64,000 nt of DNA from Mesaphorura yosii (Eukaryota; Arthropoda; Collembola; Poduromorpha; Tullbergiidae), in the NCBI GenBank assembly GCA_009869945.1, contig WIXG01000031.1:1-64000 (forward strand). The letters run 5' to 3'. Shown one piece after another: positions 2,821 through 62,068 of this stretch. A model generated the notes under the pieces. The model did not search any database. It saw nothing but the letters and a program-made list of their open reading frames with translations, and was not told the origin of the DNA. The position numbers were made by a program, and so were the translations under genes. Position 1 is the first letter of the stretch. Every line of letters begins with the position of its first letter.

Positions 2821-5800
2821 TTATTCGTGGACAAAGTACGCAAGAATGCACGCATAAAATACGACGCTGGATGTGCTCCATTGCGATGATAATGAAGCCA
2901 AAGCAATGTTTGGATCCGGCTTTGGAATGCGACTAATCCCGATTCGATCTTCAGGAAGGGGACAACCAGTTGTCTCATTCGCGAATACTCGAAAGATCGC
3001 ATTGCCCCCAGTAGTGTCGATAGTTACTGACTGGTTTTCATCTGAAATTATCCAAAGCATTTAACGACATTGCATTGCAAACGAGCGCTCTTGCTAATTC
3101 ACTGGACTGACTTAACGTCTCATTTCGATCATGGTGCTCCACAACAAGCTGCTGTCTCCTGTCATCCAGATATTGCACCAGGTGAATTTGAGTAGACGTC
3201 GGTGTGATTGTGATGTCGAGCAGATTCGACAAATACTTCACGCCTGAGCATAGCACAAAGCACAATAATCAGTATTCCTCGCCAAAGAGCCTCGTAATCC
3301 GGAATCATGTAAGCAATGGAAACGGAAATAAAAAGAGTTCTAACCGGCGAGCCTGAGTCTTGTGGAACTCGGTAGCACTCTGGGGTTCCTAAACACCAAC
3401 TCTTCCGGATACAATCTGAGGCCAGCGTAGCCATTGATAACCGACTGGAGGAAACCGCCCATTCCTGTTAATATTTTCGGGTTACTCGCTAAACAGTGCA
3501 TTGCTTGAGTAGCAATAATTGAACAGAAAACGAACCTGTGATGAAGTTGTGTGCACCACTGTTTGGGTAAATGGCTTCCGTCCATGTCTGTTGTATTTCG
3601 TGAGCATGAATGATAAAAGTTAGAACATGGAGTTGTAATATGAACTTCCATGTTAATAAACTCACCTTAAACGGTTGCCTCAAATAACTGGTATAACTTT
3701 TGATAAACATTGCGTCGGCATTGATGGAGTTGTTCAGATCCAACCAACCAACCGTGTGCATGGCCCAGGTCATTGCTGGCCCATCCGGACGCGTCAGGCC
3801 TTCGTAAATCCGCAGATCGTTGGCCCGAGTACTTTCGTTCATCCTGTACATGACAGGATAGCCCAACAGCACGACATCCGCCTGCTTAATCTCCTTCGCG
3901 TTCGTCAGGTTAAATGCTTCGAACTCCGGATGAAAGTCATTCTCTTCATCGTACAGGAACCGGAGCGATCGTGCAATTTCCAACCAGTGTTCGGGAATCG
4001 GAGCCGGCATGCTTGAACCGCAAAGACACTCCGCGTACCTGATAAAAAGAGAAAGAGAATGCAATACAGTGACCAGTCTTAATCAGAGATCAAGATCAGC
4101 AGTGCTTACTTGGCAAAGAAAATTGCATAGCCGGCCATGACATTCGTATATCCATTATTAGATGTGTCGTTGTAATTATCTTCATCAGGTGGCATAACGC
4201 CCTTGATATCGTAGAACCCATTTTCATTGTAACAGGTTCTGGAGGCGAAGAAATCTGCCACTTCTCTCACAAGTCCGCAAACATTTGTCACATACTGTGG
4301 ATTCTTGACGGTCAGCCAATCGATGTCTCGTGTGAACGCAATGTACTGCCGAATTGCGTACATGATATCAGCAGAAACATGGATTTGCAAGTCTCGAGTT
4401 TCCTCGCAGCAGTCAGGAGTCACTTCACGGCCAGTCAGTCCACTCTCCCACGGGAATCGAGCTCCACGATAGCCGCTCTTGACTGCACGGTCGCGTGCCG
4501 CTTCGACGTTATTCATTCGGTAGTTTAGCAAGTGTTGCGCCTTGTCCGGGTGAAAGAACAAAACCGCCGGAAACATCCACGTCTCAGTATCCCAGAAAGA
4601 ATGGCCTACAAATCCATTAGAATCGTTGCTAACATCAGAGACTTCAGACTCAGCTTCGAGTGAGTCATATTACCTTGATAGTCCATCGGGCGTTCAATCA
4701 GATCCGGTCTGCTCTCATTATGAGCTCCAAATGAAAGAGACCCAGGACTAAGGCCATAAAATTGGCCAACAGGATTCAGAGTTTCAGTTGTGATTGGCAG
4801 TGAGGACAACAGGTAGTAAAAGGCGCCGTTAATAACTTTGGATATGGCCAAATTTCCAAGCACTTCAATCCGTGATTTGTCCCACAGCTCACGCCATGCG
4901 GAAGCGTGCCTGTTGAAGAACCCCGCCGGGTCTCTGTTTATGTGCTGTTGCACTAAAACACGGGGAGGAGGATATGAGCGTCGGAATCAAGTCCCTATCA
5001 TTCAGTGCTTTCACTCACCTTCGAAGTATTCGCGCAGCCCAACGTCTCGCGTTTTGGAGTACGAAGTGAAGTACCACAACGTTGTGTTTCCAGTAACTTC
5101 AACGGCTCCCGTGGGAAGCTGAAAAGATAGATAAAATTACTACATACTGAATTCATACCTATCTGGCATGATCTGGTCATCACAACACTTGTATGTCACC
5201 AGTTTGAATATCTCTAGTTTGATCTACTTTCTTCAGTGTGAAATTACGAGTGTGAATCGACCATGAGTTCGAATCAACCAAAAGGGAAAGGTCAATTACT
5301 TCGAGTGCCCTTAAGTTCGACCCATTTCCGAAACTATTCTCTTGGAACAATTGTCGAAACAACTGTCGGAATCAATTCTCTGGAAACAATTCTCCTGGAA
5401 CAACCATTTGGGTCGAACTTAATGCTTAAGAACACTCGAACTCGCAATTGCGGACTGAAGGGAGTCGAATTTGTCAAATCGAACAGGCGACGTGAAACGA
5501 GTTTCGTTACCTTTTTGGTCAGCACGCACACACTAGGTGGACTATTAACATCCTGGTACACTTTGTCCTCAAGTTGCCACACAGCCCCCAAGTATTGGGT
5601 TGCATTCAAGTCGGGCAAATCAGTCTCTTGAAAGTCAATGTCGGAGCTTTCGTTCCCAGCATCATTTGTGATCAGAAGCGCGATGGTGCCTTGACCTAGG
5701 GAATGTTCAACGCTCGTTGGATTATTCATACTTCTCCTGGTTGGAATTAGTAAATGTAATTGCTGGTTGAACGTACTTGTGTCCCGTTCCACAACAATCT

Positions 5801-6454
5801 GCGTGACAATCACGGTATGATAATACTGATGAGCGTACGTTCTGATTTCAATGTTGTAGCCTTCGAACGAGAATCGTTCGCTGTAAAAACCTGGAAACAT
5901 AAACAGTGGTTGTTAGTGAATAGTGTGGAAGACTATAATTAATGCGGTGCTAAATTAGTCAAGCGCTGCACTTGACAATGACACAATTTCAGCGCTGAAA
6001 GCGAAGTCAGCAAATGTAACTCACCTTCTCTAACATTCAACTCATAGAAATGATTCAACGGTGTGGTTCCCAAAGCTGAAGTAACTTTGATATTGTTCCT
6101 CGTTGGAATACGAGCACGGTGGCTGAACCCTCGCTCGCCATTGTAAATGCCATTCATGAAGATGCTGTCACGGTGCATCACAGTGGCGACATGTCCATTT
6201 CCAATTGTTGCGTAAGTTTTGATGTCTGCCGGTAATCTAAGATATAAGATTAAGATTTTGAGAGAGAGTGGAAGTTTCGAAGTCTGGTCTTTTAATTTGT
6301 GAGACCGAGCTGTGGATCGGTCACTAGCCACTTACTCTGTTGATCTAAATATCCATTCGTCAGTGCTTATGTCTTCAGCCTGACCACGTACGTCCACTGC
6401 GCCGAGAAAAATTACTATCACAAGCGCGACGATGTTGAATAGCAAGCGTGCCAT
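2821..6454 (-). CDS. PGGHG: GH65 glucosidase, PGGHG / acid-trehalase-like
   Basis: The family hydrolyses alpha-linked glucose. PGGHG removes glucose from glucosyl-galactosyl-hydroxylysine of collagen, and its fungal relatives are acid trehalases. Eleven exons on the minus strand: 6336-6454, 6025-6236, 5511-5890, 5019-5118, 4674-4952, 4110-4605, 3666-4038, 3536-3587, 3345-3464, 3103-3243 and 2821-3041. They sum to 2493 bases (830 aa plus stop) with every junction in phase. Residues 1-25 form a signal peptide (ARLLFNIVALVIVIFLGAV). GH65 landmarks are FWDTETW near 367-373 and GVMPPDED near 499-506, where Glu505 is the expected general acid. The C-terminus ends in a hydrophobic run (VVFYACILAYF) after a Ser/Thr-rich stretch, as in a GPI signal or tail anchor. 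I infer a surface or secreted enzyme. The choice between PGGHG and trehalase activity rests on overall resemblance (PWES, PPDE context) and is not proven. Confidence 0.88.
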
Positions 6455-26340: not shown

Positions 26341-29300
26341 TTACGTATCAAATTCACGATCTCTACTCGGAATTGTAAATCCAATTGGACCTCTTGCCCC
26401 TTGCAGTTGCAGCGGCTGCTGCATGGATTGGTGATGCGCAATTTGAAACACATTACAACCACCCGCACTCACACCGGGCCCACCATCACGATCAATATAA
26501 TAGTATGGAGCCACCCGAACAGCCTCGGAACCATTTCCGCCACCACGACCGCCGCCGTAATCCCCAAATGAATGGTTTACTGCAGAAATTGTGCTCACAA
26601 GCTGCTGCTGCTGCTCCTGTCGCTGCTGCTGTTGATGGGAGGATGATGATGACGGTTTGCGAAGTGAATGAAATTTCGGTTCTTCAATGTCAAACTCGTA
26701 ACTGGAAACCTTCTTCAGTTTTTGGTGCGACTTTTGCGCATTGAAACTGTTTCTGCGCTGAAAATTCGTGCTGCTGCTCGCGGGGGTGGTAACCGTGTCA
26801 TTCTGGTAATGATGGTGATGTGATGATCTGACACCCGGCTGTTGGCTGTTGGTGTACTGGTAATAGTACGGCTGTGGCTGTTCATTGGACTGTGAATAAT
26901 GTGGCTGGGAGAGTGGATTGATCATGTGATTACTGCCCGAAGAGGATCGCTGGTGCTGGTAGTGTGGGTGCGGTGGCTGGTGCATAATTGGATTTTGAGT
27001 CAAAACTAATTTATTTGGATTCAGGATCGACGAAGTCGGATCTTGATTTGCGGCTGATGATGGATTGGGGTAGTGATGCTGCTGTTGCTGCCTCGACTGG
27101 TGTGGACTATGACTACGCGCCGTCATCGACGACGAAGTTGCTGGCAGTGTTACGTTACTTTGTTGTTGATGAGAAGGCAACTTTGTTTGCTGGCTGTGTT
27201 GTTGCTGCTGCTGCTGTCGTTGCTGAATCTGTTGCTGCTGCAATAATTTCTCTTGCCTTTTGTGCGGTGGAAGCATTTGCGAAGAGTCGAAATAATGACG
27301 TGTGAAAGCAGGTGCTTCATTTTGATGTGGTGCATAATGACCAAACTGTGGTTCGATTGGAATGTCAGGGAAGCGTTCTGTGGAGCTTCGCGTGCTCGAC
27401 GTGGCGCTCTTCGCACGCACATCCGGCTGCTGCTGGAGCTTGTTACTCAGAATGCTCGCCACAACGGCGGCTGCCTGCTGCTTCTGCTTTTGTTTCTGAT
27501 TCTGGTGAGTCGGTGGAATGTGAACGTGCTCAGGAAATAATTGCGGATTAGAAGCAAACATAACGGAATACTTCTGTGAAGACTTGCCCAGAGTGCCCGC
27601 CGTCCCTGGCTGCTGTAGCCAAGCCTGAGATCCTTGATTGCTTGTCGGCTGCGATGCAGCATGATGAAAGTGATGATTCGCAGTCACTACAGGTATTTGA
27701 TCAAAGCTAGACGAAGACTGCGAAGTGAAGCCCTGGCCCCGACGTCCTCGTTGTGGCTGTCTTTCTGGAGTATTTGGATTTGTTTGGGTTCCAGTGTTCT
27801 TGAACTGTGGTTGAGAGAAAGACCGCACCATTTGTGGAGGATAGAACGTGCTTGGTGTGTGATGACCTCCAGGCATGGCAGCCGATGGATTACAATCAGG
27901 ACAAAATGGTGAGTACACAAAAGGAGAATGTTCAGCAGCGAGATTTTCATTGTAGCTTGGATACATGGGTTGTTGTAAGCTCAAAGATCTGCGAAGTGGA
28001 TGGAATCCAGCCGCACTTGTTGGGAGCACAGTCGAGGCCGGAGGATTAATAGCATTACTAATCAAAGTCGGCTTGATTGCTTGTCCGTATTTATTTGGCT
28101 GGATTAACGGTGGAGCTGGGGGAATGGGACTCTCGTTGTCGGAACTGAGCTGAGGAGACCCACATTTACTTAAGTCTATTAGTTCCATGCCGATGATCCC
28201 AGAACCCAGCAGAACACACGTGGCACAGGCATAGAAACTCGACTTGCCAAGGTAGGAGGTCAGCCCGGTTCCAATTAGACAGCCCGGACCCATTAATGAC
28301 TGCACACACGACCATATTCGCTCCCAGTGCTTCGTTCTTGTCAGGTCCATACAAAGTATCTTCAGTGAGTAAATATAAGACCCTGAGGAAGGCAAACAAT
28401 GCATGCTTCATTTTAAGTGCCTTATTAAACTAGTTTTTTGTTTGCATTCGTCTTTCTCTCACACGGAAAAGAAGTTGGCAAGAATTTGGCAAAATGACGG
28501 AATCTGACCTTAAGCAGGAAATTGAAGTTTGCGAAACGCGAACGTGATTTGTAACAAGATTCCAAAGCTTATGATTACATTTCCGGTTTTGAAAGGAAAA
28601 GAACTCTTCACGGTGCAGGCCTCTCAATGGAGACGAACCAAGTTAACTTGCCGGGCGCACTGGCGACGCATAGGCAGTGAAAAGAAAGTATTAGCGTTAA
28701 AAGGTTATGCCTTGATTTATTAGGTTCATGCGAGAGATAAGTCTTGTCGTATCATCATTTTGAAAAAATTGCACACATTGTTACTGTGCCTGTCGGCAGA
28801 AAAGAAGACTTGGCTTGACTGGGGCTGGGCCATTACGCTTCATGAGAAAAACAACACAATGGAGACGAGACACTTTTAAACGACCGTCGGTCAGGCAGAC
28901 ACGAAGCGTATGCCAGCGACCTTTTGTCTGGCCTTTAGTCAGTCGCATTCCATCGTCATTGCCATTTCACGAGACATCGTAAGATTGCAAACTGCGAGTG
29001 TCTGCTCGCACGCATCTTGCGCCCTCGCTTTCACTCTTGCTTCTTGGCTTGGCTTGGCTCTCGCCAGCAGCGCCAAGATGTTCGCGTCTGCATGTGTATA
29101 CACGAAGGTGAATTTATTGAGTCATTTATTACATACCACATCCTATTCCGTAAATCCATGCTGACAGTGAATATCCATAGTATCCTTTCACCGATGAGAT
29201 TGCAATCATTGAGAGACCTGCAGGAGCACAGTACAGAAGAAAGCACATGTAGTACAAGTACAAGGCAGTAATAGCCTGGCTCCTGCTGGAGATTATGTAA

Positions 29301-35300: not shown

Positions 35301-38300
35301 TTAAGTTCATTTGTTTCATGTTGATTATTTCATTATAGGCCAGGGGTATTTAATTATTTCTCAAATTTTGAGTGACAATTTCCTCGTAAACAAGCAAAGG
35401 ATTCTCAAGAATCCTCTCAAAACAGCAATACTTCTACCGAGTTAACCAAAACAATAGCACTACAGCAGTATCTGCAAACTGAACGCGAGGTTTCTTATTG
35501 CACCTACTTCGTTATTGTCGTTGACAAAGACACTGAAGAATATGATGGGCTTATTGAATATATTCGCCAGAACTTAACCGTTGCAACAAAATCAATTTCT
35601 GTTTACATTGGAAAGAAGACTTTCTGCAAAAATGGACATGACATAGCTAAAGATCATCAGAGAAGAGGAGATCCAGTACCATTTACACAATCTGCAAGGC
35701 AGAGAAAGTTTCGTACGAAGTATTCAGGCACTATCATGATACAGCAAAGGACATGGAAACTGAGGAAGCATTTTGGCAGGTAACATGATTAACTCTTTTG
35801 TAGTGAATTAGCTATGATTAGCCGGGATTATTTCATGCATACAATAGAAAGACTTTTCTATTTTCAGATCGTAGGAAGCTATCGCCGCAACGTAGAAGAT
35901 TCTCCAAATTCTATCCATTGGAAAATCTGTAACGAAAGAGCCGAACCAGCTGCAGTCAACCTTTCAACAAAAGCGTTAACCGATGCACAGACATTGGCTA
36001 AAGAAAACCATCATCTGTTATGTGTCACATTAGATTGCCCTATCAAGCACAATGCAAAGAAAAATCTAGAATTTTATGGGAAGATTCATGTAAAGAAAGA
36101 AAATATAAAATAACTGGAGTTTTCGTTTCATGAATAGATGTTCATAATCTTAGTTAGCTCCTAAGTATGTGAGTCGTTAAGTACAATCTTTCTGTTACTC
36201 GTCACCCTTTGTCGAAGTTGTCAATAAAACAAAATTTTGAAACATTGAAGCTGAAACTTACCTTACGACGACATAAATTGACCACCAGTGGTGAACACAT
36301 ACTAGAAACAGACCATGAGAATGGACCCAACCAATCTGTAAGGGCAAATAAAACACGCGTATAAATACATAGGTAGAGGGCATATAAAGTTCTTGCTTGT
36401 AGTACATGTGCATTGTGTGTAGCCATGTGGCTGAACTTGGACTAGGTCTCGTGTACGCGCACAAGTGATGCGATGGAGAGATTACACGAGTACCACGCAC
36501 GGAAGAAAGAAAATTAGTTGGAAATAAATCCTGTACAAAACACATACCCAAACTTAGATTTATTTACACGGGATCATGAGCGAGTCCTGAGTCTGTCGCG
36601 TCCAGTCTCGTATTATGTTATTGTGTTAGACCAACCTTGCTTTATGTACTGCGTGCGTGTTCATGTCTCACAATTTATTATTGCAGCAGATCACAACGCT
36701 GCCGTAGATATAGAACTAGGGTAAGAATCAAGATACCAAATTTTAATGCCAATTTATCTACATTGGGCATTACTGCATTACGACGCGGGAGAAAGCCGAA
36801 AACAAGAGAGAGAATTCGAGTGAGAACCAACGTGAAAGCAGGACACACGTTCGGCCAGAGAGCGAAATGCGAAATATTATTTACACATCACTGATTTGAT
36901 ATTTATTGTGTTGTATTCTTACGAGTTACGAGTCTCTGCTCTGCTGCCTTGCCTTGGTCGTGCCTGGAGTGAAGATGATAGAGTCTGCGGCTAAGCAAGT
37001 ACTCGGCCTGAGTCTGCGTCACTTTTGCCGTGCCGTGCCGTAATGAATAACCTATAACACTACGACAATAATTTATTCCGAGTGCTCTCTCGCACTAAAC
37101 AGACTCAGTTGCATTGATACAGCTGCTTTCTCTGTACGTAAGCTGACGTGGTTTTTAGTGCCAGGGCGTTGCTCGTGCTTTATCACGTCCAAAATGCATC
37201 CACCAGGTTGAGCGAGGCTTGCAGGGTTTATAAAGGATTTCAATAAGAACAAAGAGACGAGTCAACCTTCCTTTGTCAACCCTGCCGTGTTGTTGCTCTA
37301 CGCGAAATATAATAATAGTTTTATATTCCTTCTAATCCCCTTTAATTCTTCGTTCAGGAGACACAATTGCTGCTAGTGTGTCAGAAACTATATCGCCATC
37401 GTCTTTGAATGACAAAAGGTTTTGAATTTTGAAATCTTGTGTTTCACTTTCGTCTCGGCTCAGACTGGACTCCTTTGCTTGTTCTCTGAAATCTAAATTC
37501 TGCTTCCGCCTTTCAAAGATGGTTCCGAGTTGTGATCTCTGCTTGTACGTGTGCTTTGATAAAGGCATTCACGCAGAGAAAGTCAGACTCAGATTCAGAT
37601 TTTACTTGTATAACGCATTCATTCGCTTAACTCCTTCCTCTTCTTCAGTCTTTGTTGGCATAAAATCATACACAAAATTCATGGTTGTGATGAAGCTTTT
37701 CGTTTCGCATGTTTCTAATCTTTGCAAGCACTTTCTCCTTTCATTGTAAGACTTCTGCTCCTGAAACTTTTCCTTTTTCATGCACAGCCTCCTAACCCAC
37801 TTTCAGTTCAAACTCATGCTGTGCGCGCGATGGAATCGTCTAACATGCTTTCAATTTCATTAATGCCTGCCATTCATCGAACAAATGCATTCATCCAAGC
37901 TGAAGCTGTGAAATTCAAAAAACTAATTTGATTAAGGAATGTGAAAAGCGAGTGCTGCTGCCGTGAAGGCATTCGCCAGACTGGCTATGTTCAAATTCAC
38001 CGTGCACCGTCTTTGTCGTCTTGCCTTTCGCCGTCAAAGCTAGTCCCACTCTTCCAAGTGCATAACGCTTTCTACCTGCTCTGCTTTGCCAGTGCACTTT
38101 GGAGATTAACCTTCTTTATCTTGAAGTATAATACAGGTAAAAATAAAGGAAATTTTAATTTTCTACTTCAGTCTAATTTCCTCTTTCATGTTTCGACTTA
38201 ATAAAATTTAATGAGAATATCCGACTATAAAATCATCCTTCCCTGTTGATTCCCTTACGCATTCCAAGTTCCATTAAAATGGGCGATTATCTGTGCCTTG

Positions 38301-41025
38301 ATCTTACTGAGAATGGATGCGTGCTCTAAGATTTATACATTACTCAATGGTGGCCCTAACTTTGGTTCTTGCGTTCACGGCGAACTTCGATAGCCAGTAG
38401 CCTGCTAACCGCTGTCACGACTTGGGTTTTCATTGTCTTTGTCCTTTGTCTTTACCTTTACTTTCTCACCATTACTAGTCAAATAATCACAAAGCCGCAT
38501 GCGGTAATTTGTTCCGGTTATTAATTGGTTTTATGCCCGACTTTCTACGTCAAAGTTTTTTTCCTCTAAACCTATTATGGAGACCAAAACCAATATAATA
38601 AATGTTGCAGTGACAGCCGAAATGAAGCCGAAGACCAGGTTACCGAAGTCACCACAGGTTCGCCGTAGAAGTCGGCGCAGACCGACCGACCGGCATACGA
38701 GAATACTACGAATAGTAAATATACTGGCTCGTATTTTACTACTCGTCAACCGGGACCAGGAGCGGGACAGGAAAAGTGCTACTCTGTTTTATGTACTGCG
38801 AACTTAATTCAAGCTATGCTGGAAGCGCTAATGAAGAACAAGTCTTAGGCTGTCATAAATCTTATCCAGGCGTCTGCCTAGCCCGGCCTGCATTGTTGCG
38901 TCAATCCAAGCTCCTAACACAGAAATCGTATAGGAGTCTTACTGAAAGCTGCGGTATAGGGTTTCTCTAATTTATAAAATGTTGACTTTAATACATTTGA
39001 CAAGTTGACATTAAAGAAATTTAAACCGACAAGTACAACCACAGCAGCGCACGCACTGCGGGAGTTAGAATTCACAAGACAAAGAAGAGCACAAAGTAAT
39101 ACTAAACTAACTTTGTGCAACAGCAACCACGTTAGCGTCAAGCGAGTAAGACGAGAATAAGTGGCTGTCCAACCTCCTCTACTCATTCCACTGACTCGAC
39201 TCAGACACAGGCGACAGAACACAGACTACAATGTGCAAGACAAAGGCTCTTCATAGATACACATTTAATTATTTCTCCGGGGAAAAGTTTTGCTAAAGTG
39301 AATTACGACATAACGAATCTCAAAAATGACAAGCTTGATGAAACCAGAGGAGGCAGTCGAGGCGAAAACAGTGCACCGAAAAGTAACTATGATGGAGTTA
39401 ATTCGCAAGTCGTTTAATGTACCACAACAAAAAGAGCAAGACGTTTGGGATTAAAACTGGGTATTTCCCAGTTATTCTCTACATCGCGTCGGATATTACA
39501 ACGTAACACTTTCCAAAGAATCTGAATATTCTAAACTAATAATGCGAAACAATAACCGATATGTCAGTGCTGATCAATTGTCTTTACTGAAATTCATTCA
39601 CGCACACATTGCTATACGGGACTAGTGTTTGCCAGAACTCTAGATTTATCTCCACGGTCAGAATAACGGGCATGAAGCTTTCAAAGAGAACCCATGCACA
39701 GTCGCTTGCTGACCTCATCACGATACAACCAACGAAGGATAATAAAACCTCAATCTAGAAGACGAATTGAAATGTGAATTGAGATTTCTCTCAGAACGCA
39801 TGAAAAAACTCGTTTATACATTTTGTTCCAGGAGAGGCAATTGAGCCTGTTGTATTGTAAAATGTGTTACGGGTTTAAAGAGATGAAAGTAAAGCATGTA
39901 CAAGTGCAATCGAAGCAAATCCGCCATGCAAGTACAAGTAGTTGAGCAAGACGGGACGGGGACGGAAAAGTAGACTGTCGCTTTATCTTTGCTAAAAGCC
40001 TCCTTAACTCCCTCGCTTGCTACCGTGCCGCCGCTTTCTCAGCACCAGCATAAGCGCCATGTTAAAGCATGTGCACAAGAAGTGCATTTTTGTCTTTAGA
40101 AGTTAGCACGCTGCACATAAACCACTTCAACAAATTCTGAAGATTTGCCCCTTCTTCAACTTTCTCCAGGACAATGCAAGCGATGAACGCAGCGTAGTAG
40201 TGAGAGGAGTACGTAAAGTATTCAAATAAACTTAAAACTTGTGTACTTGAGTATAAAAAGCCAGGGACGGCACGAGCCTCCTGAACTCCATTGTGCTCAA
40301 ATGAGTCAACCCTTAAATAATATAATCAACACTCACGCAAAGTAGAGCAGGAAGACAGAATTTCATTTTAAAATTTCACGGAAGAATTTAGCTCTTCTAT
40401 TCAGCAATAATAAGACGAATTCTCGTATCCCATCCAGACTTGCTCTCTGCCTCGTTTGCTTTTGGTTAGCCAACAAAGGAAAGGACGTGACTATCAAAAA
40501 TAGATTAGAAAATTCTTTCTCAACTTTGTTTGCGATTGTATTGCATTTTTAATACCAACTCAAACCCAGGCCAGGCGAGCAGGCGGCGGCTGCAATCCGT
40601 TTAATTTGGATGCTAACAAGACAAGGCAGGAGAAACGAGTGGAATAAAGAAAAGTTTCTCAAACAAGTTCAACAAGTCACGGAACGTGCAGTCACGTCAA
40701 GGCGTAGAAACAAGAAAGCTGTGTGGAAAGTATTGGAAGATTTAGTGAGCAGTGAGGCACGGGGCTTAAAATTCATTACGTGCTTTATACGAGAACACAG
40801 CTGTGTCGGAACCGCATTTTCTGTGTCTAGATTTGACTTACTTGCGTTATGATTGTCTTGGAATTTATTTGCCACTACGATATGCAATGCACCAGCAGAA
40901 AGTTGAGCACCAGAAGTCGTCACGTGCGCCAGAAATGCACATGCACACACAATCCAACCCCAACCACCTTCCGGATAGAAATGCGTGCGAACTGTCGCCG
41001 AGTCCAGTCTCCGAAGGCCACCCAT
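26341..41025 (-). CDS. SLC16/MCT-type transporter with long Q-rich tail
   Basis: This is a 12-TM major-facilitator transporter of the monocarboxylate family. Eight minus-strand exons: 40842-41025, 36262-36335, 34050-34144, 32207-32432, 32076-32141, 31837-31998, 29137-29356 and 26341-28382. They total 3069 bases (1022 aa) in phase. Family marks are YPEGGWGW at the start of TM1, the TM4-5 block EYFRRRRQFAEQVVLAGTG, YYHPQRA before the central loop, and the TM10-12 block through YGYSLSAW and LMGPGCLIGTGL. The lysine expected in TM1 of proton-coupled MCTs is absent. A short exon between TM7 and TM8 is probably missing from my model (about 25 residues too few), within 29357-31836. Residues about 400-1022 are a disordered tail rich in Gln, His, Pro and Ser, all in one 2-kb exon. 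The first exon follows an acceptor-like TTTCAG, so a 5' non-coding exon is likely. The substrate is unknown. Confidence 0.85.
27199..27243. repeat. CAG/CTG trinucleotide tract encoding poly-Gln
   Basis: Interrupted CTG units on the plus strand encode glutamine runs on the minus strand in the transporter tail. A second cluster lies near 26603-26635. Such tracts vary in length and could differ between alleles. Confidence 0.8.
29971..30239 (+). CDS. Candidate exon pair nested in the SLC16 intron
   Basis: Two plus-strand segments, about 29971-30029 and 30118-30239, join in phase through a good donor (CAGC|GTGAGT) and a good acceptor (TTCATTTCAG). The second also ends at a donor-like CCC|GTAAGA. 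The joined frame includes ATG-TAPEFLQPPECAEYEKK, then an acidic NDDEDD stretch and Ser/Pro-rich sequence. The family is not recognised, and neither an upstream nor a downstream partner exon was found. The region lies in the 2.5-kb intron of the opposite-strand transporter. The opposite strand is also open here, so the call is tentative. Confidence 0.33.
30500..31114. mobile_element. MITE-like element with terminal inverted repeats
   Basis: The left end (30500-30539) and the reverse complement of the right end (31114-31075) share CA-N-TTTTTCGATC and, further in, TTGCAT-R-AAAA, with about 70 percent identity over 40 bases. The 615-bp interior is AT-rich, non-coding and full of TTATGCAA and TTTTCATGA motifs. 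It also carries a perfect CCTTAACC/GGTTAAGG hairpin near 30904-30930. No transposase frame is present. The target duplication is unclear. It sits inside an intron of the transporter gene. Confidence 0.6.
34632..36113 (+). pseudogene. Interrupted zinc-finger-like sequence nested in the SLC16 intron
   Basis: The plus-strand pieces look like one former gene. Exons 34632-34671 (ATG), 34743-34804 and about 34921-35150 join in phase and encode a Lys-rich product with a CKKCGT pair. The frame stops at TGA (35151-35153), then continues in the same frame into a C2H2-like finger start (KCTFIGCGSSFHSLQLFQIH). A further open stretch of about 128 codons (near 35396-35780) holds protein-like sequence in one frame (YFVIVVDKDTEEYDGLIEYI). 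It must shift frame near 35650 to reach EVFRHYHDTAKDMETEEAFWQ, which joins exon 35869-36113 (IVGSYRRNVEDSPNSIHWK, stop TAA). The in-frame stop and the frame change suggest decay, or introns I have not placed. The family is not recognised. Confidence 0.4.
36336..40841 (-). other. Large first intron of the SLC16 gene
   Basis: This is 4.5 kb of non-coding sequence between transporter exons 1 and 2. I found no convincing gene on either strand. It may hold enhancers, but none can be shown from sequence alone. Confidence 0.4.
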
Positions 41026-47000: not shown

Positions 47001-50000
47001 GGTGCTGCACACAGCTTTAACTTGTGCGAATCCTCGAATTTATGGTTATGAAACAGTGCCGTCCCATTTTATGCTGACTTGCTTAAACTAAAGGCATTAA
47101 AACCTCAACCTCAATTATCGCATCACAGAGCGGTGCGGTGCGGGAAGAAAGCAAGATCGTAAGTCTCTCATGATTGCATAAAGCGATAATAATCGATGAG
47201 AACGAGTGCAGAACGTCAGCAACAAATCTTGAGAGTACAGGATCTTGCCATCTTATTTCAGGAAGCTTCCTTTGTCTTCCGACTATTCCAACTGTGAAAC
47301 TGCCGCAAACTAAATGCTAAAATAAAGTCGAAGTGAGCAGCGCAGCGTCGTCTTCCTGTGAACTGGAACGGCAACTGCGATAATAAACGGGAAGGCTGGA
47401 GAGAGTTCATAACGGGAAGAGATGAAGGGGGATGACGGAGGTAGGATTATTATTTCGCATTGTCTTTAGCAGTAGGAGCTCGTTTTACTCCTCCCGTGCT
47501 CTCATTCATTCGGTTTCTTTACGATGAGCTCTTAGCGAACATGAAGTTTAAAGAAAATTGTCTTATACATAAATAATGAGTCCAGAAATTGTAGGTTCTC
47601 AAAAGTCTTTAGCATTTTATGCCCTTTCGGTCGTCTTCCTTTTAGGCCAAGCTCCACTAAAATAAATCTCTTTTCCCAAAACTTTCATCCTCTGCCATTC
47701 AATGCAAAGAAATGTGAAGAAAGACACAAATGTACAAGCAAATACAAGATCTTTTCTTGGAACACGAAAAGAACACTGCTCACTAGCTCGTTGCCTTTTT
47801 GCGATACAAATGAGAGATAGCTGTAACAAATTTAAAATGACATTCATTCACTATTTACATGCCCCAGCCTTGTTTCCAGTCTCGACTCTCCTTGTAAATC
47901 TTTTAGAGCGAAAGAAGGCAGTTACCGAGTTGTAGTAATGCAATATTTCAGCGAATCGTGCTCAAGTAAGTGCTCGCGTAATCATGAAACGATAAAAATT
48001 CTGTAAGGGGACAGAAAGATTACTCTCATTTGTCTTTTCTCGGCAGTAAGGTGAGATTGGAACAAGGTGTCATCTACAGAGATGCGTCAGAAGACAGATC
48101 AAGCATACACTCGACTGCGTTCTTAAATTATAGACCTGAGAGGTCTCATCAAAGTTTGATGCTTGAATTACGATTTCCAGAACTCGAATAGCTTTATAAA
48201 CACAGTATTTTATTCAGCTTGAATCTAATCCGCAGCCTTGCATTTGGCAACAAATTAAAAATGCAGCTTGCGACGGTAAAGCATTCACAGAATCGCAGCC
48301 TAGCTTTACTGATCGATGATCACCAATTCCTTGCCACGCAGTTTTTGAGCTGAGCAACAATACGTATATGCTTGGATTCATGCAAAAAGAAGCCATTCCA
48401 TTCTAAATACGGGCGCAAGTCGTATTGGATCGGGCCTCTTCCATGATTCTACGCCAATACAATTCCTGATGGTGCCTCCACCATCTTCACGTGCCGTATC
48501 GCCCCATCTCTGACGAGTGAAGCAGCACGAATCGAGCTGATTCTTTTTTACATAATTTCAAAGGTAAATACGGAGACCAGAGAGAAAAATAGATAGCGAA
48601 AGAATGGGTTTTCATTCTTCCGCCGCGTCAAGCTTAAAGGCACACACGAAATAATAACATTTCGCATGATGAAATGTTTGAGGCGTTAGATTTTCAATGC
48701 AAATAACGCTCGGCTCGGCTGGCTTTGGATTTACGCTTTAGCTTATGGATTTTCCTTGCATAACTTGACTCCGCTTTGCGCCTTGACTTGGCTTACGAGA
48801 TGCAATGCGAGGCTTCCTGCGTATCATATTTCCTTTGCTTTGCTTTGCCAGCAAGTGCGAGGTTGAGATTTAATAAAAACGCTGGAGCAGAAGGGAGAGC
48901 TGAGAGCGGACTTCTCGCACTTGGAAAAGTGTGCAGACTTTACGCTCAGGCAACTGCAAAGCGTTGCGCAACTGCTGGAATTCGAAATTGTTAATAAGCT
49001 CCGAAAGCCATGGGAAAAGATGAATGTGCAAAGTCGTGGCACGGCACCACCCAAGCTGTATTCCACGGACGCAGGCTGAAGTCAAGAGCGCTTGGAGCTG
49101 GCGTGCGAATAAAGTCATTTACATTTTCGCTTAAAATATAATCAATCAAGAACTTCACAGCAGAGAAAATTAGAAAAAGAGCGCTAACACTGAAAGGTTG
49201 TAACGAGAATGAGTCTAACTTTGGAAGAGAGACTCTGAGACTTGATTCTTGAACATCTCATCCCATCACAACAACCGAATACGTCAGGAAATAACCGAAC
49301 ACATCCTTCAAGTCTGAAGCTGCCGTGTTCCGTGGAAAATGAGCCTTCTGTCTGCTCGTCTGGCCTCACCGTGTAAGCATTGTGCTGAGTGAATGATTTA
49401 TTACACAGTTTTACTCTCATTTAAAGTCAGGGCGCAGAAATGAGCAGGGTTATTAGCAACTTCAATGCTACGCTACGAGCAGTGAAGAAAGCGAACGCAG
49501 GCCAGGAACCGAGACCCAAAACGTTGTCGGGTTTATGTGTGTAATAATTACTTTTTTATGGGGTGTAATTTATTTTTCTGGAATCCCAAACTTTCCTCTT
49601 ATTACAAGTATGTGGTGCGTGTTCTTTTCGTTGTTCTCCGCTCCCTCGCTCAGTCATGATAAATTGCAGTGCGCTGAGCCCCTTCTGATCTCATCTCGCT
49701 AATGTGCAAAAGTTCAACCTGATTAAACCCAAACTTCTTACATACGACTATTCTTTTTGAGCTTCTGTACTCTGCTCCTTTTCTAATTGCTGATTGGCTG
49801 TGCCAAAAAGCTGACCCTTTTTTTGCACAAAGCCTTGCATGATGCAATATGATAAACCTTACGATGTTATCTTTTTCTCCGTTCAGTACCTGTTGACGTT
49901 CCATTGCGCCGCTGCCAACTCCGACTGCAGGGCCTTGGGTTGCCCTTTCGAACCCGGTGTTTGTTGCTTGTTTCGATGGTGGGCCATAACTGTTGTAATA

Positions 50001-51945
50001 GCTCATTTCAACAGGGCATTAAATACGGTAACGAAGGTTAAGCCACACAAGACCGAATAAGCACAGGACTAAGCTGGTATTTTATTACCACATTTATGCA
50101 TTGCCTTTCGCCACACCGCGGCTGAAGTCCCTTGGAGTTTGGCATGCCACCATCACTGCACTTTCTTACTACATGTTTTGTAATGGATTGGATTTATTCA
50201 TACTTTTGTGGAATGGAATCGTAAATGTTCGACATCATACTTAAAGATATTTATGACCTGGATTACCGACAGACAGACTCACAATGGTTGTCCGCGTCAG
50301 TGCAGGAGAAACATATTCTCTTCCTTTGTTCGCACAGCACTGCACTTCGAATTGGAATTGCAAATTGGGACTCAGATTACATGAACACGGCAAGTTTCTG
50401 TTTTCACCGCTCACATTCTTAAAAACACGTCAAGTGCAAACCTCCAACAGCATCGCAATCCAAAACTGCTATAATCAGTCAGAGCACAAACAGTTCATTT
50501 TCGACAGCAAGCAGCACACACAGATTCTTACTCAAGTTAAGCGTCCAAATTTGTTCTGCCCACTTGAGACCCTCAAACATCAACTCATGCTTTTCGCCCG
50601 AAGCACAAAAAGTCACTAAACAGAGTCGTCTTGAATGGCGACTAGAAGCCAAAATGCAAGAGTGTGAATGTCGCAGTCGTAGTCGTGCATTTTGTATTCC
50701 ACATAATGAATGAATAAACGGACTATTTATTACGGCTGCTGGTTCCAAGAAGTTGTGCGGTCGGATCTGGCGTGCGAAGTGCTGGTTGTATCGCGTAACG
50801 TGTTATTTGAGTGGTTGGATAAAGATCACTGACACTTTACTGAGGAATGAGTCTTGTGCAGTGCGAAAAGCGAAGGACTTTCTCCAATCCAATCCAACTC
50901 AACTCTCACTCTTCTCTCCTCCAACGCCAGCAATAGACAGCCAGCAAAAGTATGGAGCTGCTGAGTGTGTGCGTGTGCATGCGGGCGGCTGGTGGATGAA
51001 CGCAGTGCTTAGCATTGAGAGTCCCACTGATGTAGTGTACCACTGCCTGCCTTTCATTTTACCTCTTCCTCGTTATGTGCTTATGCTCGTCGCTCTCTGT
51101 CTTGCCCTGCGAGTGAAGTCTTCCTTCACTTCACTCCTTCTCAGCCACCAGCATACCGCACCAACTTTCTCCACAACAACTCCGCGTCTTCGTCTTGGCC
51201 CAGTCACTGCACTCGCTTTCACTTCGTTTATTGTATTATTGTATAAACATTTCTGTACATGCGTTCTAGATTTCCTCTTAATCCAAGCCCAGGACGAGCC
51301 AGCAATCGGCTCCCTATTTGTTTGAGCTGGAAGTGGCGCAAGCTATTAATTTTTAAATGGCACCCGTCGCACAGCTTATAAATTGGCTGTTTAGTTGTCA
51401 GTTGAGAAGTGGTGCTCAGACAGTCAAGACCACGATCATTCGCCATTGCAACTGATCAAACAGTTGAGCCTTGCAGACGCTAAGCCCTTCGCCATTTCGC
51501 CAGCATGCGTGAGAAATCTTTTGTATTGCGTGCGCATTTTGACAAATTGTGTGCACTGAACTGTTCCCAGCCATCAAAGTTAATGCCTTCTCTAAAGACG
51601 TGATTGGCGACTGGCACTCGGTAATAACTTAAGACGAAGCGCGAGTCAGCAAAAACTGACTCGAAGTTACTGTTATTGTTTTATTGGGGCATAATTCCGT
51701 CAATCTAAATTTATGAAATGCTTGCTGCTCGTGTCACGATCGCGGCTCGAAAGTCGCTGAATTTATTATATGAGTGATAAACTTCAAAATGCGACTTACA
51801 TTAAATGAGTCAAAGGCAAGCCGTAATCTACGTAAAAGGTTTATTTGAAGAGTAAGCAGGATTGTTTGGGCATGCCTTCCAATTCGCGTTAGTAAATGTT
51901 GGAATAAAGCCCTTTACTTAGCTAAATTATTCATCCTGGATCGTC
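41026..51945. other. 11-kb gene-desert stretch
   Basis: It holds only short, unsupported open frames on both strands. Around 43730-44480 the sequence ends in an ACCTATTATTACCATTAC-like tail that may be the 3' end of a degraded non-LTR element. The rest may be intergenic DNA upstream of the SLC16 gene or a long intron of the gene carrying the duplicated exons at 54-57 kb. Confidence 0.35.
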
Positions 51946-53966: not shown

Positions 53967-54141
53967 CTGGTGATAGCTTTCGCCTATGAGTGTCGGATTA
54001 TAGTACGAGGTTCCATAGTTCTGTACTACCGTGTAAGGAGCACCAATCATCGGCCCTCCGGGGTGCCGACTACGAGCACTCATTTCCTCTCGTGAACTCC
54101 ACTTCCTTAAATTTTCCCACAAATATAAACAAAGTACCATG
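53967..54141 (-). CDS. Alternative exon B of a membrane-protein gene
   Basis: The exon runs from acceptor CCCCACCTGAG| to donor CACCAG|GTAAAG. It starts with one base of a split codon and ends in phase 0 (58 complete codons). The product begins MVLCLYLWENLRKWSSREEM, the end of a membrane helix followed by a charged cytoplasmic turn. It continues with a Tyr/Gly/Pro-rich region ending NPTLIGESYHQ. The acceptor has a good pyrimidine tract. It is nearly identical over the first 60 bases to exon A 3 kb upstream and related at the end. The flanking constant exons were not identified, so the gene is unnamed. Confidence 0.6.
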
Positions 54142-56915
54142 CTCAGGTGGGGAAAGTAATCTGGATGGAGGAAGGAGCTTAGCACTCAACACCTGAGCCT
54201 TGCACAAAGCCCGAGCCTACAGTGAAAAGCCATTTTGCACTGATTCGAGATCAGATTTCCACTCTGAGTCTCAAAAGCTACAAATCCAGCCACTTGATAT
54301 TCGGTACGAAACCAAAGTCAATAAACACTAAACACGCAATTAAGGTAATTGATACTATGAAACTATAACTACATTGAGCTTGTGTTCCCAGCACGGTTTT
54401 CACTTCACGTCGTTTCAAATTAACATGAACAGGAGCACTCGTTCACTCTTGCAAATCTGAAGCAGAATGAGCAACAAGCAACGGCAGTCACAGTCTCAGT
54501 CGTTAGCCGCACGAGAGACTGCGAAGGAATTGCTTTCACGCACCACAACCTGCTTGGGTAAACTGATTCTTCTCGCATTACTTGCGTCGAGTCAGGTCTC
54601 TCTCGTGATTTCAGTTCAGTATCCATTTCCAAGCAATATCAGCCCCTGCCAGGCAGCGAGCCAGCCGACCGCCAATGCCCGTGAGTACGAAATACACATC
54701 GTGCATGGTTTGAGAAAGGTAGCACTAGAAAGAACTAACAGTTAACAGCCTGAACATCAACGTAGGCGTGAGTCGAGTCGAACAACGAACCATGCTCAAA
54801 TTGTTTTCTGAAACCTGAGCTGCTTTCGTACTCCTTTTATTAATACGATATCTGAGGGAATATGCTGTGATTCCGCGGCTGCTCATGCATAAGTCAATGA
54901 ACATGCAGAGTCTGGGTTGAAAGAATGCGAATAAATCTTGACAAAGGGACTCTTTTAATAATACCAGCTCTTTCAGCAATAATCGGATTGAGTCTGCGTG
55001 GCGCAAGTCCAATGTCCAGAGCCGTGATGGAGTCTGAGCCTCCTTCGCTAGAGGAAAAGAATTCGATCAATTGTTGCAGTTGTCGTTGTCGTGCCGTTTG
55101 CACTAAAATGTAACGCAAATATAAGACATGATGCTGAATGCTGTTCTCGGACAGTGACTTGAAGCATTAAACGAAACGAACGAAGGATTCAAAGAAGACA
55201 CAATTGAATTGCATGGTTCCTGCTTGCCTGCGCGCTGACAATGAATGCGGCCATTTCATGCCAAGAGTCTCGACTCCGAACTCGGACCAGTTTGTTGATG
55301 TTGAAAAGAAAACACTTTGCGTGTGACATTAAAATGTCCAAATAAAAGGATTTTGACAAAAAGAAAGGGAAAATAGAATCCCATTCACGTGAATGAATGA
55401 CACTCGCTGGTTGGCTCCCTGGATTGTATACAAAAGACGACACTACGTGAGTCGTTGTCGCGAGGCTGATGACTGTTGTCGTGACTGTCACTGCGACGAC
55501 TGCTCACTGTTCCGGTCCTGGCCACGCTCGCTCTTGAAGCTTTCTTCAACTGCTCCGTTTCCTGCCTGCCTGCCAGCTTTGCCCTAAATCCTTGTTTTCT
55601 TGGGGGATTTGCAGTTTGATTGTTTTGGTTTTGCAAATTGCATGGGAATTACTTTGTTTTCAGTTTTGTGTATCAGGAATGATGGCAAGATGACTTGAGC
55701 CTGGCCAGAGAAAGTGCTTTTGCGCAATTTGAGTGCCTCCTGCCGCTGCCGGCGACGTGAAAGTTTTGGTTCAATGTCAAAGAAAGTCAGCACTAATATG
55801 CGGGCCTACGAGAGAGTGAGCCCAGACCTGCATTGCGCGGACTGTGCATGTAGACGTAATAAACGAAATCATAACTGTGCTAGACATAGATTTTATCGCC
55901 GCCAGCGTTTTTCAATCAATATCTCAATTCCGCTGAGTAGCTGGACGACCTGAGTAAACAAAAGTAGTTTGGACGCAGGGAACTGGAAATTATTTATCGT
56001 TTGCTCAAAAATTCAACTGCTATCTGCTACTCTGTACCAAAACACGAAATTCGAACGTTGTTGCTTAATTAAAGTGGACTTCTAAACGGACGAGATAAAT
56101 ACGGCGGATTTAGTATTAAAATTGAGTGATTACTTGAACAAATCCCAACGGATTTGCTCGACAGATTAAAACTGTAGGACAGTCTTGAATTGACGTAATA
56201 TTCTGAAGAATTCAAACGGCTATAAATCCGTTCTCGAATATTCTTCGTAGAATTTTGGCAAATTGAACTTTTTCCCTATCAAATTTCATGGCTGAGATAA
56301 TTCTCGCTCTCGCGCCTAATTAAAATCCAATATTTTCAAACACTGCTAAAATGGAAAACTTTTCAGAAGCGATAAAAACTTGGACCAATTAATTTCGTTA
56401 TATTTACCATCTCCGTGCTACCACCATCGTACTCGCACAATTCCGATTTTTATCCAAATCAAAGTTGAATCACTTTATTTTTGTTCTTCCTTCCTGCCAC
56501 TGCCGCTAGCTGAGATCCCGTCTCAGTAAACTCGACCATCTCACTTTCATTCAAGCTACTTGCGGAATATCGCAATAATTGCCACCAGACGAGAGAAAAG
56601 TTTTATCAGGAAGTTTCTTGAGATCGAGAGCAGAGAGATGAACAAAAGACAGCTGCAGGGTGAATTGGCTGCTTCTCTCTTGCTTGTGAACTGCACAATC
56701 TGCTTCCTACACATTTCGTATGAAAGACAGCCGAGTGCAGAGCAGAGTTCGGTGTCTTTTATGGCGAGCTCCAGACACGAGAGTTTAGTCCAGAGTCTGG
56801 CTGCCAAACGCCATGCCGAGTGAATAATTAAATGATTACTTCAAACTTTCTCCAATCACTCTGGTCTTGGGCACGGACCTTACGCTTTATGCGCATTTAA
56901 TAATCGTGTGCTTAC
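54142..56915. other. Interval between the duplicated exons
   Basis: This is 2.8 kb without a supported exon, presumably intron of the gene carrying exons A and B. No third copy of the shared exon sequence was seen here. Confidence 0.4.
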
Positions 56916-57150
56916 CTCCTGATAATCCTCCCCTACTATTGAACCTTCATACGGGGCAGGTGCATACGATTGTTTTGTCGTTTGTACCATCGCCGCCGCC
57001 GCAAAGGGCGCCGCATCCGGGCCTGGACCCACGATGTAGCTCGTGCTGTTGCTATTTGGATTCATTCGCGTCGAATTTTGCCGACTGTGCATCTCCTCGC
57101 GTGAACTCCACTTCCTGAGATTTTCCCACAAGTACAGGCAAAGTACCATG
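56916..57150 (-). CDS. Alternative exon A of the same membrane-protein gene
   Basis: The exon ends at a strong donor (CAGGAG|GTAAGC) and opens with the same 20 residues as exon B, after an acceptor (CGAGGAG|) with a poor pyrimidine tract. It has one base plus 78 codons, so its start and end phases equal those of exon B. After the shared part it diverges: Asn/Ser-rich sequence, an alanine run (PFAAAAMV), then YAPAPYEGSIVGEDYQE, which parallels the YYNPTLIGESYHQ end of exon B. The matched phases and the conserved ends suggest exon duplication with mutually exclusive use. The weak acceptor may mean regulated or reduced inclusion. Confidence 0.6.
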
Positions 57151-59607
57151 CTCCTCGGGTTGCGACGAGGTCAGCTCGCGTCTCTGTATGTGGGTTCAGA
57201 GAAAGCTCAACTAAATCACCTCCATCGGACGGTGCAAATAGGCACGGGCTTGGGCACGAATGATGGATTCAAAATGACACCTCATGAGGATTGTCCGACG
57301 CAACTTTGATTACTTAATCCTCGAGATAGCTCGCAAAAGTGCGAACTGGACATCATCACAATCACTCTCACACACTCGACTGACCACGCCAGGCCGAGCT
57401 TACGTTGTCTATTTTGAAACTATTGCGTGATAAATTCGTTCTCGTCACATTCACACTTGCACGCGTAGGAAGCATTGTCCATCTCTCACGACTTTATTGC
57501 TGAGAACGCGAAAAAAAACTGAGCACGTATCATCATGGAGACGTGAAGCAGCCAACTGAGCGGCTGTGAGTTTGGTCTGACTACAATCTACAATGCTCGG
57601 AGGAAAGGAAGAGATTCACTTTCACCACCATCGCGGCATGGTAGAGCACAACAGCAGCCAGCACGGCAAACTCAACTTATAAACTGATTCTCTTGGCACC
57701 GAGAATCTCTTTTTTGATTTTAGTATCGTATCAACTACCTTGTAAACGCAAACTGTACCATTACATGTACGAGCAGGGAGTATTTTAATACAGTTTTTAA
57801 GAACATAAAGCCTTGCCGTCGTGGTGGTGGTGAACCATGCGCAAATTGTTTCACGGCGCAAGAACCCCTTTCATGTACATTACGTGCCTGCATTTTTTGG
57901 CTTCTTTAATCCACTCGCTCGCTAGTCACTACTCACTTGCGTCTTAACTCCTCCGCATTTCGCTGTCGAGTCGACTCTCAGTTAATCTTGGCCTGCCCTT
58001 GCCTTTCCCGTACCGTAAATGTGAGTCTAAATTAATTTGTAATTACCGTAATGTAATGCTTAATGCCTGCCATAGTGAAATTGTCAACGGTGGGCTTCCG
58101 TTGAGAGAGAAAATTGTACTGGGAATGGGTTGAATAAGCTGTAATTCTGATGGTGACATATTACAGCATTACAGAAGCATTGAATAGATTAACATATCTT
58201 ATGAGGCGCGGCAGCGCAGAACCGAACCGAGGCCCAACCCACCAAACAACAACCCATAAACAGAAGAACAAGAGATGATAGAATCTCTTGAAGCTGAAGG
58301 AATTCTATAACCAGAGCTATTTAAAATTCATGCCACGTAACACGTTTCAACTTCATTCGCTCGCCTTTCGCGTATTCGCGGCGTGCTTTCTCCGTGAATA
58401 CTCACGCACATTTCAGCTCCATCATGTCTCATTTGTGTAAATGGCAGATCTTAAACTTTCAAAGGATAACTATTTACTAAATGGTGATATTATGCAAATC
58501 TAATGTTCACTGCCGTAAATGAGTTCCAAGTGGAGTTCAAGAACATTAGTGGCGAATGAGCGCACAAAGTCGCGAGGTCTGCAGGTAAATAGTTCACTGG
58601 GGATTCCAGAAATTAACATAACGGAGTCGCTGAATTTATTCAAACCAGTTTACTCGCGACCCGATCAACATTTGCTTTCGCAAATTGAGTGCAGCGCCAA
58701 TTTTACGCATGATTGACTGACAGGTCGTGTTTTAAGCATACTGAGCTTCAAACCACGATCATTCATCAAGCGGGATTATCCACTCAACGTCTCCATTCTC
58801 TCCACATTTCCGAATTTGTAATTACTCATTTCCTCATTTCACATTGAAGTGTCTACTCCCACTTCAAAACGAAACTACAAAACATGGCCACACATGAAAA
58901 AGTAAATATGAGCCGAATTTACTGAATAATGGATTAGTGTCAGGCGAGTCAGGCTATAGCCACAGCCATGGTGTGCTTAATTACTATTTTGCATCTGACA
59001 ATGGCATGAAAGTTCTCAGTTCTGGAAGTGGAATTTGTAATGTCAAATTAAATTCATGCACCAGACACCAAGTATACATATGCATGGATGAATGACAAAG
59101 TTCAAATTAATTAAACCTGCTTACTAAAAGGGAGAACACGCAGTGCAGACCACCATGCAAGCGAAAATATTGCAGTGACGATGCGAATCAAGTTAAATGA
59201 AGATGCACGCGAAACAATTGCGATTTATCCTAGAAACGGTGATGTACCAATTCTACAGAAGCCGCACTGCACGAGTGACTCGACCTGAGATAGTCTTTTA
59301 GGTAGGCGAATTGGACGTAACCAGCGGCGTGGTCGAAGTGCTAGCAGTAAATGTATGCACAAAACCATGAAAGCATGAATTCAAGATGAGACCGCATCGG
59401 GGCCATAAAATATTTAAAGACTTGTACAGAAGTTACGACACGGAACTTTCATCATTTTGCTTGTTTTTTTCTGCCACCATTCATATTTCCATTTCCTATC
59501 TCCACGGCACGTATCGCGCCGGTAGAAAGATTGTTAGCTTTACGTTGCCCCTGTGCATGAGTAACCACAGTCGACGAGAGTTAAGGCCTTTGGCTCGAAT
59601 TTGAGGA
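57151..59607. other. Non-coding stretch
   Basis: No gene or repeat is supported. It may be upstream intron of the gene with the duplicated exons. One candidate short segment ending at a donor-like ACAAG|GTAGTT (near 57738, minus strand) is too weak to call. Confidence 0.35.
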
Positions 59608-62062: not shown

Positions 62063-62068
62063 TTTATT
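62063..62068 (-). terminator. Poly(A) signal of Syp
   Basis: AATAAA on the minus strand lies about 175 bases beyond the Syp stop codon. Confidence 0.45.

Follow-up and report, generated by a model that had tools for sequence, protein, structure and literature searches.

Two related exons on the minus strand of a Mesaphorura yosii contig, called A and B here, appear to be duplicated alternative first coding exons of a gene that resembles the SLC16 transporters, probably with duplicated promoters. We give this reading a probability of roughly 0.68. It proposes a tandem duplication that copied not only the first coding exon but also about 700 nt or more of the sequence before it, probably the promoter. 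A and B would each have their own transcription start and start codon, with separate promoters and regulation, and either would be spliced in phase 0 onto a common exon at 41025, the TM1 exon. Both protein forms would begin with the same 20 residues and end with the same transporter, and between these parts would lie a cytoplasmic linker that differs between the forms (58 residues in A, 38 in B). Exclusivity would be set by promoter choice at the start of transcription and not by mutually exclusive splicing of internal exons, which an earlier note on this DNA had proposed. Positions are those of the window, the whole stretch of 64,000 nt that was analyzed.

Exons A and B open with the same protein segment

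The two exons and the block that they share are as follows.

56916..57149, minus strand: exon A, candidate alternative first coding exon (ATG at 57149, 78 codons, exit phase 0)
53967..54140, minus strand: exon B, candidate alternative first coding exon (ATG at 54140, 58 codons, exit phase 0)
57090..57153, minus strand: exon A copy of the shared 64-nt block, GAGC followed by 20 codons for MVLCLYLWENLRKWSSREEM, 88% identical to the copy in B
54081..54144, minus strand: shared 64-nt block in B, 88% identical to the copy in A

The coordinates, the strand, and the near-identical opening given in the earlier note were borne out. Both exons leave in phase 0, as it had also claimed, and either can be used in the same frame. 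Among all minus-strand GTs of the window, the donor of A (GAG/GTAAGC) ranks in the top 0.2% and that of B (CAG/GTAAAG) in the top 1.2%.

The first 20 codons of A and B encode the identical protein segment. All 8 nucleotide differences between them are silent, with 6 of the 20 codons differing, and when 8 substitutions were drawn at random 200,000 times, no draw was silent throughout. This supports protein-level constraint on both exon copies. With 8 changes across 10.0 silent sites, a small sample, these sites have reached saturation. This points to a duplication that is probably old and of which both copies have probably been retained. A recent copying event was ruled out by the 6 differing codons, the saturated silent sites, and downstream introns that do not align. 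The 8 silent differences all run in one direction, with G or C in copy A and A or T in copy B, and the G+C content is 53% in exon A and 47% in exon B.

Searching the 93-Mb assembly with the shared block at the DNA level (E = 1.5e-14) returned the A and B loci alone among the best-scoring candidates, and so did a protein search (E up to 10). Neither search found a third copy among those candidates. Dispersed repeats were rejected as an explanation by this occurrence at only two places among the candidates scored. Codon usage was scored with weights from 5,302 codons in 28 segments of the genome, which included parts of the SLC16-like gene and left out A, B, the TM1 exon, and a weak further candidate, exon C (see below). 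Exon A scored 2.3 in frame, versus −13.5 and −7.0 in the other frames. Exon B as a whole was slightly negative in frame (−1.99) but far above its other frames (−14.5 and −10.3).

Other searches gave little. Exon A had no match in the PDB, a Pfam search with the exons returned nothing useful, and an NCBIfam search with them returned one chance-level match (E = 0.21), to candidate C. No relative was found in the viral contigs searched, three peptides did not occur in a text search of papers, and a tRNA scan returned 0.

Similarity between A and B begins just before a likely start codon

The similarity between A and B starts 4 nt before an ATG (GAGC ATGG). Both copies read GAGCATGG, where position −3 is an A and position +4 a G. 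Each exon thus has its own start codon in a good context, as a variable first exon would. The context of the ATG is conserved between the copies, whereas the sequence just before this context is not. The earlier note had both exons enter with one base of a split codon. That base is present, but it reads equally well as the base before the start codon. Similarly, the hydrophobic residues said to precede the shared segment begin at a likely initiator methionine and not at the end of a membrane helix.

An internal exon would begin with a working 3′ splice site, and the scores give no credible one at A and a borderline one at B. With splice-site and start-codon weights taken from the generic metazoan consensus, the acceptor at the edge of the shared block scored −6.5 in A, a value that 81% of minus-strand AGs in the window equal or exceed. 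The acceptor that had been assumed for A is not credible. The corresponding site in B is mediocre (−0.5, with 14% of AGs at least as good).

On the same strand, upstream of A and B, lies a gene for an RNA-binding protein (RRM; PF00076, E = 2e-20). Its stop codon is at 62246 (last exon read by eye), and there is an AATAAA at 62068. Therefore, A and B are not exons of this gene. In a scan of 62240-57200, no coding exon with the exit phase (2) needed to supply the assumed split codon scored above the opposite-strand control. The best internal exon in that interval scored 2.0, versus 3.3 in the control, and the best first exon scored −2.2, versus −1.0. Of the flanking constant exons for which the earlier note suggested a search, an upstream coding exon thus has no candidate above the control in this interval, and the downstream one has its best phase-0 candidate in the TM1 exon.

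Splicing A onto B, whether at 54141 or at 54160, puts the reading frame out and leads to a stop. The two are not jointly productive, and a transcript that begins with A must skip B because including it would lead to this frameshift.

The earlier proposal was that A and B are internal coding exons, chosen by mutually exclusive splicing and flanked on both sides by constant coding exons. They are duplicated, have the same exit phase and similar ends, and the block-edge acceptor of B could function, all of which would be compatible with that arrangement. However, the acceptor of A is worse than four fifths of all AGs, the upstream gene has already ended at 62246, no upstream coding exon of fitting phase rises above the control, and it is the ATG context, not the sequence just before it, that is conserved. 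The good-context ATG and a duplication found on the upstream side only (see below) further argue against internal cassettes, and we regard them as very improbable.

The duplication seems to include upstream sequence

A second duplicated sequence lies upstream of each exon.

57832..57851, minus strand: 20-mer copy upstream of exon A (AAACAATTTGCGCATGGTTC), 683 nt ahead of its ATG
54787..54806, minus strand: 20-mer copy upstream of exon B (AAACAATTTGAGCATGGTTC), 647 nt ahead of its ATG

The 20-mers are identical at 19 of 20 positions, and they are offset by 3,045 nt, versus 3,009 for the exons. We compared the upstream sequences with dinucleotide shuffles in four runs (1,000 or 1,700 nt, two band widths). 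The in-register 20-mer scored 18, whereas the shuffle maxima were 14 to 17, and none of 300 shuffles reached its score in any of the four runs. Therefore, it seems that sequence upstream of the exon was duplicated as well and that one element of it has been retained. After removal of one self-match that came from overlapping inputs, 11 local matches between the A and B regions were left, and 5 of these, including the exon block and the 20-mer, have offsets of 2,956 to 3,121. A genome-wide search with the 20-mer pattern, allowing up to 2 mismatches, found the A and B sites and one site on another contig (2 mismatches).

Once the 20-mer was masked, what similarity was left upstream was at chance in a band of 60 (238 of 400 simulations reached the top score) and modest in a band of 150 (13 of 400 reached the top score, and 3 of 400 reached the sum of the top two). 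In the introns downstream of A and B, similarity was at chance, with 212 to 300 of 300 shuffles reaching the best score. Retention of an upstream element is the pattern expected of a promoter or enhancer, and the 20-mer may be part of one. In the 900 nt upstream of the exons there is no TATAWA, and there are 6 initiator-like TCAKTY sequences before A, 2 before B, and 2 before C. No clear DPE was seen by eye in the upstream sequence.

Better acceptors than those at the block edges occur farther upstream, at 20 nt (3.6) and 316 nt (3.2) before the ATG of B and at 350 nt (3.8) before that of A. Therefore, a 5′ untranslated exon and intron, shared or separate, is possible ahead of A and B. These acceptors also lend some plausibility to a different arrangement, in which one promoter and an untranslated first exon upstream of A would feed a regulated splice to an acceptor before either A or B, making them mutually exclusive 5′ cassettes that each carry an ATG. 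Duplicated exons, also in untranslated regions and among initial exons, have been linked with mutually exclusive choice in one study (PMC9013439). However, the shared block starts at the ATG with no credible acceptor in A, and the duplicated 20-mer lies upstream of the candidate acceptors, as a promoter element would. Among inverted repeats of 20 nt or more in the region of 52 to 60 kb, candidates for the intronic docking sequences that the earlier note suggested testing, there were only two weak pairs (22 to 23 nt, 73 to 78% identity), and neither was convincing. We consider 5′ cassettes unlikely.

A first-exon scan ranks A and B highest

We scanned the minus strand from 62000 to 41030 for first exons, defined by an ATG, at least 20 codons, and a phase-0 donor. 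A ranked first (8.3), B second (5.9, scored from an inner ATG at 54083), and exon C third (4.1, taken to 49863), whereas the best score on the plus-strand control was 1.5. A minus-strand control region at 26 to 13 kb, for which the gene content is not known, gave 5.8, 4.8, and 4.1, which is close to B and equal to C.

49890..50006, minus strand: exon C, a weak candidate for a third first exon (MSYYNSYGPPSKQATNTGFERATQGPAVGVGSGAMERQQ; opens MSYYNSYGPPSKQ), phase-0 exit after 49890 or 49863

The two donors of C are weak (0.97 and 0.61), and its coding score is 2.1 in frame, versus 0.3 in another frame. C is unrelated to A and B and is only a candidate.

The proposed common exon belongs to an SLC16-like gene

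Downstream of A and B, on the same strand, are exons of a predicted transporter gene.

40842..41025, minus strand: TM1 exon, proposed common second exon (acceptor TTTGTTTCAG/ATGGGTGGC, entry phase 0, starts MGGLRRLDSATVRTHFYPEGGWGWIVC)
36262..36335, minus strand: probable SLC16-like exon of the TM2 region (WLGPFSWSVSSMCSPLVVNLCRRK; entry phase 1, score 5.3; TM2 and phase assigned by eye)
32432-32207, 32141-32076, and 31998-31837, minus strand: SLC16-like exons, about TM4 to TM7 (boundaries and TM numbers by eye)
26341..28382, minus strand: SLC16-like terminal exon, encoding the final membrane helices and, after them, a long C-terminal tail rich in Q, H, and S (boundaries by eye)

This gene model is incomplete in the TM3 region and around 30 kb. 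When the exons were joined and compared with solved sequences by phmmer, all 12 matches at E up to 1 were monocarboxylate transporters. The nearest solved structures were MCT8 (9.6e-7) and MCT10 (3.4e-5), with weak matches to MCT1 (0.0049) and MCT2 (0.025). The joined, incomplete exons matched Pfam MFS_1 at 34.2 bits, just over the cut-off of 33.4, whereas single exons were all under the Pfam cut-off. SLC16 proteins carry the signature [D/E]G[G/S][F/W/Y]GW before TM1, and the motif YPEGGWGW is found at the start of the TM1 exon. The downstream gene is, as predicted from its sequence, SLC16/monocarboxylate-transporter-like.

The acceptor of the TM1 exon scored 4.23, in the top 0.2% of AGs. In a scan of 53960-41000 for phase-0 internal exons, the TM1 exon was best (8.0), the next scored 4.2, and the best on the plus-strand control was 4.7. 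When the scan was widened to 26300, the exon at 36335-36262, read in phase 0, tied with the TM1 exon at 8.0, and the plus strand gave one exon at 7.3 that looks like a chance hit. The proposed splice to the TM1 exon would span an intron of 16 kb from A or 13 kb from B.

The first codon of the TM1 exon after its acceptor is an ATG. Therefore, the transporter could also start there, after a noncoding first exon, as a short form with neither A nor B. The same ATG, together with the length of the intron that would otherwise have to be spliced, fits an alternative in which A and B belong to one or two small, separate minus-strand genes between the RRM gene and the SLC16-like gene, the latter beginning at its own ATG at 41025. 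However, among the other phase-0 acceptor exons from B down to 41025, the highest score was 4.2, which is under the best of the plus-strand control. We judge separate genes to be quite unlikely.

The terminal exon has about 680 codons, and after the last membrane helices it continues as a Q/H/S/P-rich, low-complexity tail of about 600 codons. A tail of this length is unusual for a monocarboxylate transporter. A search of the assembly with the transporter gave 13 further matches outside the window. Nine were on one contig, C1, within about 32 kb (C1:919925-951592), which suggests a cluster of SLC16 paralogues, and the other four were on C902, C98, and C32. The TM1 motif was found at two of three paralogous loci. 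At these two (L014 and L016), the region before the motif was unlike the head of A and B, and at the third (L018) the motif was not found.

The tails differ but end alike

Beyond the shared head, the tails of A and B have diverged and yet are related. Their local alignment score was reached by 1 of 2,000 shuffled tails. The related end motifs pointed out in the earlier note, GEDYQE in A and GESYHQ in B, stood up as well, with a score reached by 2 of 20,000 random hexamers drawn from tail B. MCT N-termini are cytoplasmic. Therefore, the N-terminal linker that distinguishes the A and B forms would lie on the cytoplasmic side. The two cytoplasmic tails of the earlier note may thus be rightly placed with respect to the membrane, but they would be N-terminal tails.

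When spliced to the TM1 exon, the ends of A and B would read YQE/M and YHQ/M, a YxxM/Yxx-phi pattern that is suggestive only. Motifs of this type are sorting or SH2-type signals. One could imagine that duplication of a promoter and first exon created two separately controlled N-termini with a fixed 20-residue head and a tyrosine motif rebuilt at the junction, so that promoter choice would alter only the linker between the head and a sorting or SH2-type signal. We find this extension of the model doubtful.

Other features of the window and the assembly

The window also encodes a glycosyl hydrolase family 65 protein on the minus strand at 3708-5912 (PF03632, E = 2.4e-38 for 4109-4669). Minus-strand stretches adjoining this match have coding-like codon use and probably belong to the same gene. 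Among the matches listed, several on small contigs were to kinases in long uninterrupted frames, an impression and not a count. A second organism may have contributed DNA to the assembly. No COX1 match at E up to 0.001 was found in the assembly, which may therefore lack the mitochondrial genome.

Discussion

In multiple-variable-first-exon clusters, each transcript carries one variable exon, which is joined to common downstream exons. Such clusters, as in UGT1 and GCNT2, contain a tandem array of variable first exons (PMC1885805). The A/B locus is like these clusters in its proposed variable first exons in tandem. It differs in having just two related copies and one weak, unrelated candidate, in that the variable part is a short cytoplasmic N-terminal segment, and in that its promoters are putative.

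Tandem-duplicated mutually exclusive internal exons, such as those of arthropod Mhc (PMC2257972), resemble A and B in being adjacent and homologous, in sharing an exit phase, and in being unproductive when both are included. In contrast to these, exon A has no credible acceptor, A and B carry a start codon within the exon, and their similarity is kept upstream and not in the downstream introns.

Tandem duplicated exons have been described in both coding and untranslated regions, as has mutually exclusive choice among duplicated initial exons (PMC9013439). The A/B pair is a further example of the kind described there. Among the open-licence papers listed for duplicated first exons and for SLC16 isoforms or promoters, none dealt with a case like A and B, judging by title.

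The downstream gene is like the SLC16 transporters MCT8 and MCT10 in its sequence match, in MFS_1, and in the EGGWGW motif. It differs from them in its terminal exon of about 680 codons, most of which is Q/H/S-rich tail, and in its candidate alternative N-terminal exons. That its product is a transporter is a prediction from the sequence.

The case of A and B would not change what is known of gene architecture. If they are indeed alternative first exons, one transporter gene would make two N-terminal forms with the same 20-residue head despite heavily diverged silent sites, and the keeping of this head would mark it as functionally important. The locus would then be a clean case for the study of how duplicated promoters divide the expression of an SLC16-like transporter.
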